A DNA stretch of 64,000 nt from NCBI GenBank assembly GCA_029936815.1, contig JAPYRX010000003.1:57172-121171 (forward strand), given 5' to 3'. The notes beneath the pieces are model-generated. The model saw only the letters and a program-made list of their open reading frames with translations, made no database searches and was not told the origin of the DNA. The position numbers and the translations under genes were made by a program. Numbering within the stretch: position 1 is the first letter of the stretch; each line of letters opens with the position of its first letter. This DNA comes from Dehalococcoidia bacterium. Lineage in GTDB: Bacteria > Chloroflexota > Dehalococcoidia > Lucifugimonadales > GCA-002694895. Positions 4,262 through 10,085 of this stretch are shown one piece after another.

Positions 4262-4290
4262 TTGACTTATTAGAACAAATGTTCTAATAT
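4262..4290 (+). promoter_or_regulatory. LexA-type operator inside the ftsZ-homologue promoter
   Basis: A perfect inverted repeat with 9-bp arms, 'tattagaac-aaat-gttctaata' (4268-4289), contains GAAC-N4-GTTC, the core of the Gram-positive LexA (Cheo) box. It is embedded in a good sigma70-type promoter: TTGACT (4262-4267), a 17-nt spacer, and TAATAT (4285-4290). The operator fills the spacer, so a bound repressor would block RNA polymerase. The same arrangement occurs upstream of umuDC in this window, and a hand scan found no third GAAC-N4-GTTC site. LexA binding is inferred from the motif; no lexA gene is in the window. Confidence 0.8.
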
Positions 4291-4326
4291 TGTATTTTCA
4301 TTAAAAAGCATAAAAGGAACAACTAA

Positions 4327-5409
4327 ATGTCAGATATCAAAGTAACAATTATTGGAGTAGGTGGGGCGGGTTGCAATACAATTAATAGGCTTAATCGTAA
4401 AAACTTTACAAAATATAATTTACTGGCTGTTAATACTGATACTCAAATGCTAGAAACCATTAATACTTCTGGAGTCTTTGCAATTGGGCCTATTACAACT
4501 AAGGGTTTTGGTAGCGGTGGAAATCCAAGAATTGGAAGAGCAGCAGCTAAAGAAAGTACAGATCAATTATCAAAAATATTAGAAGGTCAAGATCTGGTAA
4601 TACTTACAACAGGTCTAGGGGGAGGAACTGGCACGGGAGCCACTCCAGTAATAGCGTCCCTAGCAAGAAAATTAGGAGCTTTAGTAATAGTTGTAGCTAC
4701 ACAACCTTTTACATTTGAAGGTAAATTAAGAAAAGAATATTCTGATAAAGCTGTGAAATCAATATTAAGAGCTAGCGATAGTTTCATAGAAATAAATAAT
4801 GATGGATTACTTTCTATAAATTCAGATAACAAATCTTTAGATGAATCTTTTAAATATGCAGATAATGCATTGATTGATATAGTAGAAGAAATTACAAGTG
4901 TGATTGCTGATTCGGGATTGATTAACATTGATTTTGCAGATGTTAAAAATTTATTATCAAAATCAGGTAAAACTTTTATATCAAAATCTAAAATTGAAAA
5001 AAATCAAAAAATTGACGAGATTTATTCTGATTTGAAAAAAAACTTACTTATAAATTATGATTTTAAATCTTCGAGAAGAGTTTTATTATCAATAAAATCT
5101 AATCCTGATTTCTCACTTAACGAATTGAATACAATAGCGACAAAGATCTCTTCTTTTTTGTATGATCCTCAAAATATATTAATTGGAGTTAATAACACTT
5201 TCCACAAAAAAAACATTGTTGAAGCCACATTGATTGCTTCAGATTTGAAATTTTCTTTTTCTGACCAAATCGACCAAAATGATGACATGAAAACTTTTTC
5301 ATTTATTGACAATAATCAACCATCATATCATTCACAAAATGAATCTGCTAAAATGAGTCCGTTATTAAGTTTTAAAAAATTAATTCGCCTTCCTATTGGT
5401 TTCAATTAA
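4327..5409 (+). CDS. ftsZ: Divergent FtsZ homologue (tubulin-like GTPase)
   Basis: FtsZ polymerises into the cytokinetic Z-ring. This 360-residue homologue keeps the N-terminal GTPase: 'GVGGAGCN' (10-17), 'NTDTQML', 'GSGGNPRIG', the tubulin signature 'GLGGGTGTGA' (about 96-105), and the T7-loop 'GLINIDFADV' with both acidic catalytic residues. Beyond that it diverges: the usual GxALMGIG segment reads 'SGKTFISKS', the GA-GVLVNI strand reads 'SSRRVLLSI', 'NDRLL' reads 'NNDGLL', and the C-terminus ('FKKLIRLPIGFN') has no obvious FtsA/ZipA-binding peptide. AAAGGA lies 8 nt before the ATG. It stands alone, with no ftsA or dcw genes, and a LexA-type box overlaps its promoter. It may be an SOS-induced second FtsZ; being the sole FtsZ cannot be excluded. 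Confidence 0.88.
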   Translation: MSDIKVTIIGVGGAGCNTINRLNRKNFTKYNLLAVNTDTQMLETINTSGVFAIGPITTKGFGSGGNPRIGRAAAKESTDQLSKILEGQDLVILTTGLGGGTGTGATPVIASLARKLGALVIVVATQPFTFEGKLRKEYSDKAVKSILRASDSFIEINNDGLLSINSDNKSLDESFKYADNALIDIVEEITSVIADSGLINIDFADVKNLLSKSGKTFISKSKIEKNQKIDEIYSDLKKNLLINYDFKSSRRVLLSIKSNPDFSLNELNTIATKISSFLYDPQNILIGVNNTFHKKNIVEATLIASDLKFSFSDQIDQNDDMKTFSFIDNNQPSYHSQNESAKMSPLLSFKKLIRLPIGFN

Positions 5410-5455: not shown

Positions 5456-5785
5456 ATGAGTTATTTTAAAGATGTAAATTCAAGGAATTTTTTTGAATTA
5501 GCTCCAGGTGCTAATGCTCAAACTTTTTGGGGTGACAAAATGCTAATGTCAATTGTTACAATTGACCCTAATTCTATAGTTCCTAATCATACTCATCCTC
5601 ATGAACAAGCTGGAATATTACTTGACGGCTCCCTAAACATGACTATTGGCAATGAATCTAAATTACTTTTACCTGGCGATATATATATTATTCCAGGAGA
5701 AATTGAACATTACGCTAAATCATCCGATATAGGAGCTAAAGTCTTAGATATTTTCTCACCTGTCAGAGAGGAATTTAAATATTAA
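5456..5785 (+). CDS. Small single-domain cupin
   Basis: A roughly 109-residue cupin with the metal-binding motif 1 'PNHTHPHEQAGILLDGSLNM' (HxH, then E and G) and motif 2 'LLPGDIYIIPGEIEHYAKS'. I place the start at the ATG at 5456 rather than the in-frame GTG 6 nt upstream, because AAAGG ends 5 nt before this ATG. Small cupins of this kind range from dioxygenases and isomerases to sugar or ligand-binding proteins, so the reaction is not known. The stop codon abuts the start of the alpha/beta hydrolase, which indicates one transcript and perhaps a shared pathway. Confidence 0.85.
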   Translation: MSYFKDVNSRNFFELAPGANAQTFWGDKMLMSIVTIDPNSIVPNHTHPHEQAGILLDGSLNMTIGNESKLLLPGDIYIIPGEIEHYAKSSDIGAKVLDIFSPVREEFKY

Positions 5786-6616
5786 ATGACTATTAATGAC
5801 AATTCTTACATCACCATTGGCGATGTAAGCAATCCACCTTTACTTCTTATTCATGGATTGGCTAGTAATAAATATACTTGGAAAGTTATTCTACACTTCC
5901 TAAAAAAACATTATTATATTGTTTCTATAGATTTACCTGGACACGGCCAAAATTCTGAATCTTTCACCGATTTTTCATATATTAATATTGTTGATTATAT
6001 AGCAAATCTACAAATACATTTGAGCATAAATTTTGATTATATCGCAGGTCATTCTTACGGGGCGTCAATCGCAACATCAGTTTCTTTTGATTCCAGATTC
6101 AATATAAAAAAAATTGCTTTACTAGATGGAGGTATGATTCCTATGAAATTAATTCCTGAAATGAACCAAGATAACTATAAAACTCGATTATCACCTCCAG
6201 ATTTCACAAACAGAAAATTTGAAAGTATTTCAGATTTTATTGATAAAAATTTATCTTTAAAATCTAATACTTATAGTGAAGATATTAAATATGCAATACT
6301 TAGTAATTTTGACCACACTCAAAAACCTAAATTAGTTCCTTTTTTAAATCGTACTAATCATTTGAATATTGTTGATTACCTTTGGGACTATAATCCTGAA
6401 ATAATATTATCTCAAATTGATATCCCTGTTTTAGGATTAATGGCATGCAAATTTGATAGCATTGTCGATAGTAATTCATATAGATGTGAATACACTGATT
6501 ATTTACAATCTATCAATTCTCGTATCAGTATTAATTGGATTTTAAATACTCCTCATGATTTACAATTATATGCTCCTAAATTGGTATCAAGGAAGCTTGT
6601 TGATCATTTTTCTTAA
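5786..6616 (+). CDS. Alpha/beta hydrolase
   Basis: A 276-residue alpha/beta-fold hydrolase with the oxyanion-hole segment 'LLIHGLASNKYTW', the nucleophile elbow 'IAGHSYGAS' (Ser about 90) and a C-terminal 'NTPHDLQLYAP' that supplies the catalytic His. The acid is probably the Asp in 'ACKFDSIVDSN'. The substrate is unknown; carboxyl esters or C-C bond substrates are usual for this group. It begins directly after the cupin stop (TAA immediately followed by ATG), so the two are translated from one mRNA. It converges on the MBL-fold gene with a 4-nt overlap. Confidence 0.88.
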   Translation: MTINDNSYITIGDVSNPPLLLIHGLASNKYTWKVILHFLKKHYYIVSIDLPGHGQNSESFTDFSYINIVDYIANLQIHLSINFDYIAGHSYGASIATSVSFDSRFNIKKIALLDGGMIPMKLIPEMNQDNYKTRLSPPDFTNRKFESISDFIDKNLSLKSNTYSEDIKYAILSNFDHTQKPKLVPFLNRTNHLNIVDYLWDYNPEIILSQIDIPVLGLMACKFDSIVDSNSYRCEYTDYLQSINSRISINWILNTPHDLQLYAPKLVSRKLVDHFS

Positions 6617-8375: not shown

Positions 8376-8409
8376 TTGAATATTATAGAACATATGTTCT
8401 ATAATATTC
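8376..8409 (+). promoter_or_regulatory. umuDC promoter with a 32-bp perfect palindrome containing a LexA box
   Basis: Bases 8378-8409 form a perfect 32-bp palindrome with 14-bp arms around 'atat'; its core GAAC-ATAT-GTTC is a Gram-positive LexA box. A promoter for umuDC surrounds it: TTGAAT (8376-8381), 18-nt spacer, TATAAT (8400-8405). Because the palindrome is symmetric, a TATAAT also faces plsY on the minus strand (8387-8382), but no good -35 stands behind it. Repression by LexA and induction on DNA damage are the natural reading for umuDC; any effect on plsY is a guess. Confidence 0.85.
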
Positions 8410-8436: not shown

Positions 8437-8835
8437 ATGTACACTCCAATTCCATTTTTAAAATTGATAGCTTCTGCTGGGTTCCCATCTCCTGCAGAAG
8501 ATTTTTTGGAACCAAATTTAGATTTAAACAAATTTTTGATAAAAAACCCTCCTGCAACTTTTTGTATAAAAGTTAAAGGAGATTCAATGATTGGGACTAG
8601 AATTTATTCTGGTGACGTTTTAATTGTAGACAGATCTCTTTCTCCAGAGAATAACAATATTGTTCTTGCTACTTTAAATGGTAGTTTTATTGTTAAAAAA
8701 ATTATTATTACCCATAGCAAAATATATTTAATGTCTGATGATGGTGAACGATCTGAAAAAATTTATATAAACGATCAAACAGAATTTAATATATGGGGAG
8801 TAGTAACCTCTGTGATTAATAAATTGATAGAATGA
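8437..8835 (+). CDS. umuD: UmuD-like S24 peptidase, DNA polymerase V accessory subunit
   Basis: A 132-residue UmuD. The self-cleavage site is 'ASAGFPSPAEDF' (cut expected between Ala14 and Gly15), the catalytic serine lies in 'VKGDSMIG' (Ser50), and the general-base lysine in 'SFIVKKI' (about residue 87). RecA filaments stimulate UmuD self-cleavage, and UmuD' then joins UmuC to make translesion polymerase V. The gene lies 27 nt downstream of the LexA-type palindrome and overlaps umuC by 4 nt (ATGA), so the two are translationally coupled. Confidence 0.93.
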   Translation: MYTPIPFLKLIASAGFPSPAEDFLEPNLDLNKFLIKNPPATFCIKVKGDSMIGTRIYSGDVLIVDRSLSPENNNIVLATLNGSFIVKKIIITHSKIYLMSDDGERSEKIYINDQTEFNIWGVVTSVINKLIE

Positions 8836-10085
8836 TTGCTTTAGTTGATTGTAATAATTTTTATGCTTCATGTGAAAGGATTTTTCGCCCTGATTTAATT
8901 GCTAAACCTGTGATAGTTTTATCTAATAATGACGGATGCGTAATTGCGAGAAGTAACGAAGTTAAAGATATGGGAGTTTCTATGGGAACTCCATTGTTTA
9001 AAATCAATGATTTGGTAAGAAATTACGAAATAAATATATTTTCATCTAATTTTGCATTATATGGAGATATATCAAATAGAATAATGCGAATTTTAAAAAA
9101 TGATATTGCTAATGTTGAAATTTATTCGATTGATGAAGCCTTTCTTGATTTTTCTGATTTTAATAATCATGAAACAATAGCGCTTGATTTAGTGAATAAA
9201 ATTAATAAATGGACTGGGATTCCTACTTCAATTGGTATTGCTGAAACTAAGACATTAACTAAAATTGCTAATCTGTTTGCTAAACAATCTAAATCAAAAA
9301 ATATTTTTCACATTGACAATTCTAAAATTAAATTTTTCACACAAAAAACTAAAATCTCCGATGTATGGGGGATAGGTAATAAATATACAAAATTTTTAAA
9401 TAAAAACAAAATTTATACTGCATATGATTTAACTCAAAAAAATGATAAATGGATTTTGAATAATATATCTATAAATGGTTTGAAAACCATGTATGAACTT
9501 AAAGGCATTAAATGTTTTGAATTAGAATTACTTTCATCACCTAAAAAAAATATAAGAACATCTAGGACTTTTAGTAAAGAAACTAGTGACTATTATAAAT
9601 TACAAAGAATTATTAGTTCTTTTGCTTCTAAATCATCAGAAAAATTAAGAAGACAAAATAGTAAGACTTCATCTATTTCTGTATTTATTAAAACAAATCG
9701 ATTTAAAACTCGTAATAATAATTTCAAATTGATTAGTAAATCAAATTTTGAATATCCAACTGATGATAATTCTATTATCGTTAAAGAAGCTTTGAAAATT
9801 TTAAATAAAATTTTTATTCCAGGTAAACTCTATAAACAAGCTGGAGTTATTATTGGTGATTTTCAACTTTCAGACAAAGTCCAACCTGGATTGTTTGAAA
9901 ATATGTGCCAAAAAAACGTGAGAAGTAAGCTTATGCAAGCTTTTGATACTATCAATAATGTTTTTGGTTCTGAATCAATCAAATTAGGATCAGAAGAATT
10001 TCATAATAAATGGCGAACTAATAGAAACAAATTGTCTCCTTCTTATACTACAAAATGGAATGATATTTTAGATGTAAATATATAA
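8832..10085 (+). CDS. umuC: UmuC, Y-family DNA polymerase V catalytic subunit
   Basis: A 417-residue Y-family polymerase. The first catalytic aspartate lies in 'ALVDCNNFYASCERIF', the steric and nucleotide-binding motif in 'NNDGCVIARSNEVK', and the second acidic pair in 'YSIDEAFLDF'. Helix-hairpin-helix ('VWGIGNKYTKFLNKN') and little-finger regions follow, and the C-terminal 'QPGLFEN' extension is typical of UmuC rather than DinB. It copies past lesions with UmuD' after SOS induction. Start is set by the ATGA overlap with umuD. Confidence 0.95.
   Translation: MIALVDCNNFYASCERIFRPDLIAKPVIVLSNNDGCVIARSNEVKDMGVSMGTPLFKINDLVRNYEINIFSSNFALYGDISNRIMRILKNDIANVEIYSIDEAFLDFSDFNNHETIALDLVNKINKWTGIPTSIGIAETKTLTKIANLFAKQSKSKNIFHIDNSKIKFFTQKTKISDVWGIGNKYTKFLNKNKIYTAYDLTQKNDKWILNNISINGLKTMYELKGIKCFELELLSSPKKNIRTSRTFSKETSDYYKLQRIISSFASKSSEKLRRQNSKTSSISVFIKTNRFKTRNNNFKLISKSNFEYPTDDNSIIVKEALKILNKIFIPGKLYKQAGVIIGDFQLSDKVQPGLFENMCQKNVRSKLMQAFDTINNVFGSESIKLGSEEFHNKWRTNRNKLSPSYTTKWNDILDVNI

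Follow-up and report, generated by a model that had tools for sequence, protein, structure and literature searches.

The divergent second ftsZ gene (ftsZ2) of a Dehalococcoidia bacterium is very probably controlled by LexA and would thus belong to a LexA (SOS) regulon of very few genes. The best explanation of the data described below, in which we place moderate confidence, is that this small regulon includes an extra FtsZ that stalls or remodels the Z-ring after DNA damage. The features concerned are located as follows in the window, i.e., the whole stretch of 64,000 nucleotides that was analysed.

4262..4267, + strand: −35 element TTGACT of the ftsZ2 promoter (sequence and promoter scan; TTGAC kept in five of five species in the alignment)
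4271..4286, + strand: LexA-type operator TAGAACAAATGTTCTA (same box at lexA, umuDC and nurA; genus alignment)
4285..4290, + strand: −10 element TAATAT, overlapping the 3′ end of the operator (sequence and promoter scan)
4313..4319, + strand: likely ribosome-binding site AAAGGAA (sequence; purine-rich stretch at the same place in relatives)
4327..5409, + strand: ftsZ2, divergent second FtsZ, 360 aa (Pfam, TIGR00065, alignments, fold match)
5456..5785, + strand: small cupin protein, 109 aa, 3′ of ftsZ2 in five of five species, possible operon member (ORF, Pfam)
5786..6616, + strand: alpha/beta hydrolase, 276 aa, 3′ of the cupin gene in five of five species, possible operon member (ORF, Pfam)
8386..8401, + strand: LexA-type operator TAGAACATATGTTCTA in the umuDC promoter TTGAAT-N18-TATAAT (8376–8405) (pattern and promoter scan; conserved in the genus)
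8437..8835, + strand: umuD, 132 aa, S24 peptidase, autoproteolytic subunit of Pol V (ORF, profile matches)
8832..10085, + strand: umuC, 417 aa, Y-family translesion polymerase (ORF, Pfam)

The ftsZ2 Promoter and Its Operator

The operator TAGAACAAATGTTCTA occupies the spacer of TTGACT-N17-TAATAT, 40 bp 5′ of the ftsZ2 open reading frame. The promoter scan also lists this pair of elements (4262–4267 and 4285–4290), so that the promoter proposed for the ftsZ homologue in the first-pass annotation is confirmed both by the sequence and by the scan. The palindrome described there as filling the spacer is real as well, with a correction to the length of its arms, which had been given as 9 bp: the arms (4268–4277 and 4280–4289) measure 10 nt each, are 100% complementary, and flank a 2-nt centre.

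The pattern GAAC-N4-GTTC is found in the window exactly twice (4273 and 8388), versus 0.35 occurrences expected by chance. The same two sites alone match the extended pattern TAGAAC-N4-GTTCTA with at most one mismatch (0.16 expected; no shuffle contained two), and both belong to promoters, those of ftsZ2 and umuDC. This count bears out the earlier observation that the single other site of the window precedes umuDC, where the layout is indeed the same, the operator lying within its promoter. The umuDC operator is part of a perfect 32-bp palindrome (window 8378–8409), longer than that at ftsZ2, which on the minus strand also scores as a terminator-like hairpin.

The genus was sampled as five species, assembled genomes only (G000–G004); the source genome, G000, comprises 1.46 Mb in 35 contigs and is 90% complete. 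When the upstream regions are anchored at the ftsZ2 ATG, the box starts 53–56 bp 5′ of it in all five species, and in a 160-bp alignment 15 of the 16 box positions are invariant, as against 38 of 144 elsewhere. The genes upstream of ftsZ2 vary by species (a DCC1-like protein, a 114–137-aa ORF, or a 593-aa ORF with a gamma-glutamyltransferase-like beginning), which argues that the box is not part of a transported conserved block. Alignment of related genomes, recommended initially as a check, thus revealed the palindrome to be kept in all five sampled species of the genus together with its position in the promoter.

The LexA Box of the Host and the Extent of the Regulon

The source genome encodes an intact LexA of 208 aa with helix-turn-helix and S24 peptidase domains (LexA_DNA_bind, 52.1 bits; Peptidase_S24, 82.3 bits; TIGR00498, 179.2 bits), in which the Ala-Gly pair in IAAGEP, the Ser in KGDSM, and the Lys in TLKRF can be read from the sequence. 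In this genome, TAGAACATATGTGCTA stands 27 bp before the lexA start, inside a promoter-like TTGCAA-N17-TACATT. Across the genus, the lexA box lies 20–27 bp before the gene start in five of five genomes, reading TAGAACATATGTGCTA in four of them and CAGAACATATGTGCTA in G003, and the ftsZ2 box matches this box at lexA itself. As lexA is autoregulated in most bacteria, the box at lexA identifies the motif of the host LexA without experiment. The genome-wide check for lexA has therefore returned an intact gene with its own copy of the box, and the objection that the host LexA might recognise another motif is answered by the lexA promoters of all five genomes. Sites resembling GAACATNNGTNC are present at lexA promoters across the order, which agrees with a single motif family.

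If one mismatch to TAGAACNNATGTTCTA is allowed, the source genome contains sites only at ftsZ2, umuDC, and lexA and one intergenic site (contig C9). The nurA box has two mismatches to TAGAACNNATGTTCTA, and the other two-mismatch sites inspected are inside open frames. Within the genus, the box recurs at ftsZ2, lexA, and umuDC in five of five genomes and at nurA and the intergenic site in four of five, where the missing copies may be gaps in incomplete assemblies. At ftsZ2, umuD, and lexA, it occupies the same position between the −35 and −10 elements in every genome. The nurA box likewise fills the spacer of its promoter, and three of the four genomes with a nurA box have a clear TTG −35 there. 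The bare GAAC-N4-GTTC core is not significantly enriched genome-wide (15 palindromic sites versus 10 reversed-control sites), and several of the 15 are in genes or in repeated, tRNA-like sequence. It is the extended 16-bp box alone, together with its position and conservation, that is informative, and not the bare core. The concern that the motif might often precede unrelated genes was not borne out, as the strong intergenic sites are those of ftsZ2, umuDC, lexA, and nurA-herA and one in front of a hairpin.

The proposal of LexA control of an ftsZ, made originally from the window, is thus supported by a genus-conserved box, by the same box at lexA, and by the small number of other sites, from which we infer LexA binding and induction by damage. 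An alternative is that the palindrome arose by chance or is bound by a different regulator, with ftsZ2 being an ordinary duplicate. The slight genome-wide excess of the bare core would fit such a reading, to which, however, hardly any credence can be given in view of the extended box, its promoter position, its conservation in five species, and its being common to lexA and umuDC.

FtsZ2 and Its Relation to Other FtsZ Proteins

FtsZ2 is matched by the Pfam families Tubulin/FtsZ (E 8e-38) and FtsZ_C (E 2.6e-6), the C-terminal domain being weakly recognised (28.1 bits at a cut-off of 27). In TIGR00065, the canonical FtsZ equivalog, it scores 278.1 bits, below the cut-off of 295.2, while FtsZ1 of the same genome reaches 381. 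The motif GGGTGTG (98–104), R135, and the T7 loop N200-I-D202-F-A-D205 are kept. An AlphaFold model with a mean pLDDT of 78.6 and an unstructured tail matches E. coli FtsZ with TM 0.80/0.94 (Foldseek). The description as a divergent ftsZ homologue is therefore apt, since the FtsZ domains, motifs, and fold are all there in a protein scoring below the equivalog cut-off. The C-terminus reads KLIRLPIGFN in the window and KLIK[LI]PIGFN in relatives, and this tail is kept in five of five species; a PPFLR-type C-terminal peptide (FtsA/SepF) is absent. FtsZ2 proteins share 71–82% identity within the genus, compared with 30% between FtsZ2 and FtsZ1 of the source genome, and dN/dS between species is 0.05–0.17, so that ftsZ2 is a working gene under purifying selection.

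The umuDC genes are situated 3–6 kb from ftsZ2 across the genus. In G003 and G004, a DNA photolyase gene is located two genes 5′ of ftsZ2 (L112:464-1846 and L111:6446-7828), with umuDC on the other side, and the three together are a small DNA-damage neighbourhood. G004 has two ftsZ2 copies (L111 on contig C20 and L109 on contig C7) with near-identical surroundings and a synonymous divergence of 0.23, owing either to duplication or to the mixing of two strains in the assembly.

The search for another ftsZ, suggested with the first-pass annotation, yielded a canonical FtsZ1 in all five genomes, the other four proteins being 80–94% identical to that of the source genome. The latter has DLPPFLRKY near its C-terminus, and its gene neighbours, named from sequence, we take to be ftsA and nrdR (order ftsA-ftsZ-nrdR). 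No LexA box was found in 1–1.5 kb around the FtsZ1 genes. Thus, FtsZ2 has the fold, the GTP-binding motif, and the T7 catalytic motif in common with canonical FtsZ (TIGR00065; FtsZ1), but it differs from FtsZ1 in most of its sequence and in the absence of the LPPFLR-type tail, and its gene, rather than belonging to the ftsA-ftsZ operon, has a LexA box.

An extra FtsZ without the PPFLR tail is also encoded in nine other families of the order (L050-L066, L070, L073, L227, L229). These proteins share the missing tail with FtsZ2 but are only ~34–41% identical to it, and neither the ftsZ2 box nor the lexA motif of the order, GAACATNNGTNC, was found at their genes; because of this, LexA control of a second FtsZ is, on present evidence, particular to the genus considered here. 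A constitutive role is conceivable for the boxless proteins, and FtsZ2 may have inherited it. In the tree, they group with FtsZ2 against canonical FtsZ with a support of 87/100, a placement that is uncertain because of the very long FtsZ2 branch. A recent duplication of FtsZ1 within the genus is disfavoured without being rejected (p-AU 0.07, with lnL lower by 19.5), and the test likewise fails to reject a tree that joins FtsZ2 to the canonical FtsZ1 proteins of the whole order (p-AU 0.22). As in archaea with dual FtsZ (e.g., Odinarchaeota, PMC12583498), two FtsZ proteins occur here in a cell that probably has no murein septum, but in the tree the sampled archaeal FtsZ make up a separate clade, apart from FtsZ2.

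In several other families, in contrast to the genus, the second FtsZ gene directly follows a conserved 87–88-aa ORF (L050:1163-1429, L055:1080-1346, L060:1218-1481, L227:618-884) with the pattern GGPRYG..VDMG..G.W.IPYYFL..P.AA. The three of these ORFs tested gave no Pfam match; the product is a candidate partner of the second FtsZ of those families.

Possible Role of FtsZ2 in Division after DNA Damage

An FtsW-family gene was not found in four of the five genus genomes (G000, G001, G002, and G004) or in G014, another member of the order. The sole FtsW/RodA match in the genus comes from a contig end in G003 (L280, contig C48); this contig may be foreign, although the match could also mean that the genus is not entirely devoid of FtsW. 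SAR202 bacteria are reported to have no peptidoglycan, ftsW, or ftsI (PMC11994032). From genome size, low G+C, and relatives, the lineage can probably be assigned to the streamlined SAR202 groups of the surface ocean, with tiny and probably marine cells, for which ultraviolet damage would be a daily matter.

The known SOS division inhibitors are SulA, which targets FtsZ, YneA, SosA, and SidA, which acts on FtsW (PMC9578287). Like these, ftsZ2 would be a LexA-controlled gene acting on division after DNA damage, but the known inhibitors are small and unrelated to FtsZ, whereas here the controlled protein is an FtsZ. If FtsW is indeed missing from the four genomes named above, SidA-type inhibitors would, moreover, have nothing to act on there.

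Sequence and conservation establish the box with its promoter layout, the regulon, the paralogy, and the motifs, and these suggest the following scheme. LexA bound to the box between the −35 and −10 elements would block RNA polymerase. Upon DNA damage, RecA-stimulated self-cleavage of LexA would allow FtsZ2 to be made along with UmuDC and NurA-HerA, as an extra FtsZ beside the constitutive FtsZ1. Without the FtsA-linking C-terminal peptide and with a different conserved tail, damage-induced FtsZ2 would mix into the Z-ring and cause its stall or remodelling until repair is complete, standing in for the SulA, YneA, or SidA of other bacteria. Since its nucleotide-binding and GTPase residues are kept, FtsZ2 can very probably polymerise or co-polymerise with FtsZ1. 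Arrest or remodelling is favoured because SOS programmes generally delay division, because no division gene other than ftsZ2 belongs to the regulon, because FtsZ2 has no FtsA-type tail, and because FtsW-directed inhibitors such as SidA would find no target. If LexA control is granted, the chances that FtsZ2 inhibits or remodels division are about even. The more specific proposal, that in a lineage probably lacking a murein septum a dedicated damage-induced FtsZ paralogue runs the SOS division checkpoint by co-assembling with the Z-ring and disabling or reshaping it, is a tentative one, with a chance just short of even.

The main rival, owing to the conservation of the catalytic residues and of the separate tail, is a LexA-controlled FtsZ2 with a positive role, either as an auxiliary FtsZ for division or recovery after damage or by building a ring of its own through a dedicated partner of the tail, like archaeal FtsZ1/FtsZ2. 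Conserved catalytic residues would be dispensable in a pure inhibitor, which makes a positive role plausible as well: the GTP motifs are intact too, purifying selection is strong, the tail KLIKLPIGFN suggests a specific partner or membrane contact, and boxless second FtsZ genes are found in many other families of the order. It is nevertheless rather unlikely, as more division capacity during damage would contradict the characterised SOS programmes, and no other division gene accompanies ftsZ2 in the regulon. A LexA-controlled filament outside division, handling the chromosome or remodelling the envelope during repair in a TubZ- or CetZ-like manner, would agree with the diverged C-terminal domain (FtsZ_C 28.1 bits), the new tail, and the repair function of neighbouring and co-regulated genes (umuDC; photolyase in G003 and G004). 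It is quite improbable, however, given that in sequence and fold FtsZ2 is nearest to bona fide FtsZ and far from TubZ (PDB profile search, Foldseek).

The SOS division checkpoints known so far act via small dedicated inhibitors, and no report of a LexA-controlled ftsZ was found among the titles and abstract beginnings of the open-licence literature. If a LexA-controlled FtsZ does stall or remodel the Z-ring, it would represent a different design, in which incorporation of a variant subunit alters the polymer, and would point to a way for bacteria lacking FtsW and FtsI to hold back division once their DNA is damaged. FtsZ1 and FtsZ2 offer a ready two-FtsZ system for in vitro work.

Other Putative Members of the LexA Regulon

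No good box was found in the recA upstream regions, RecA being present in three of the five genus assemblies; recA lies outside some known LexA regulons. In the source genome, a 202-aa ORF and the gene for a HerA-like ATPase come after nurA (L121:6290-9654). This nurA-herA-type cluster stands under a LexA-type box, which recurs at nurA in three other species, and end-resection genes of the NurA-HerA type would accordingly appear to be under SOS control.

The fifth box is the intergenic one. It lies between convergent genes, with TTGAC directly abutting (L120:2420-2560 (C9:109951-110050), L115:2005, L105:1963, L113:2069), and leads into a 15-bp hairpin that is conserved, with compensatory changes, and present in one copy per genome. 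The hairpin gave no Rfam match; the site could encode a damage-induced small RNA or serve as a two-way terminator.
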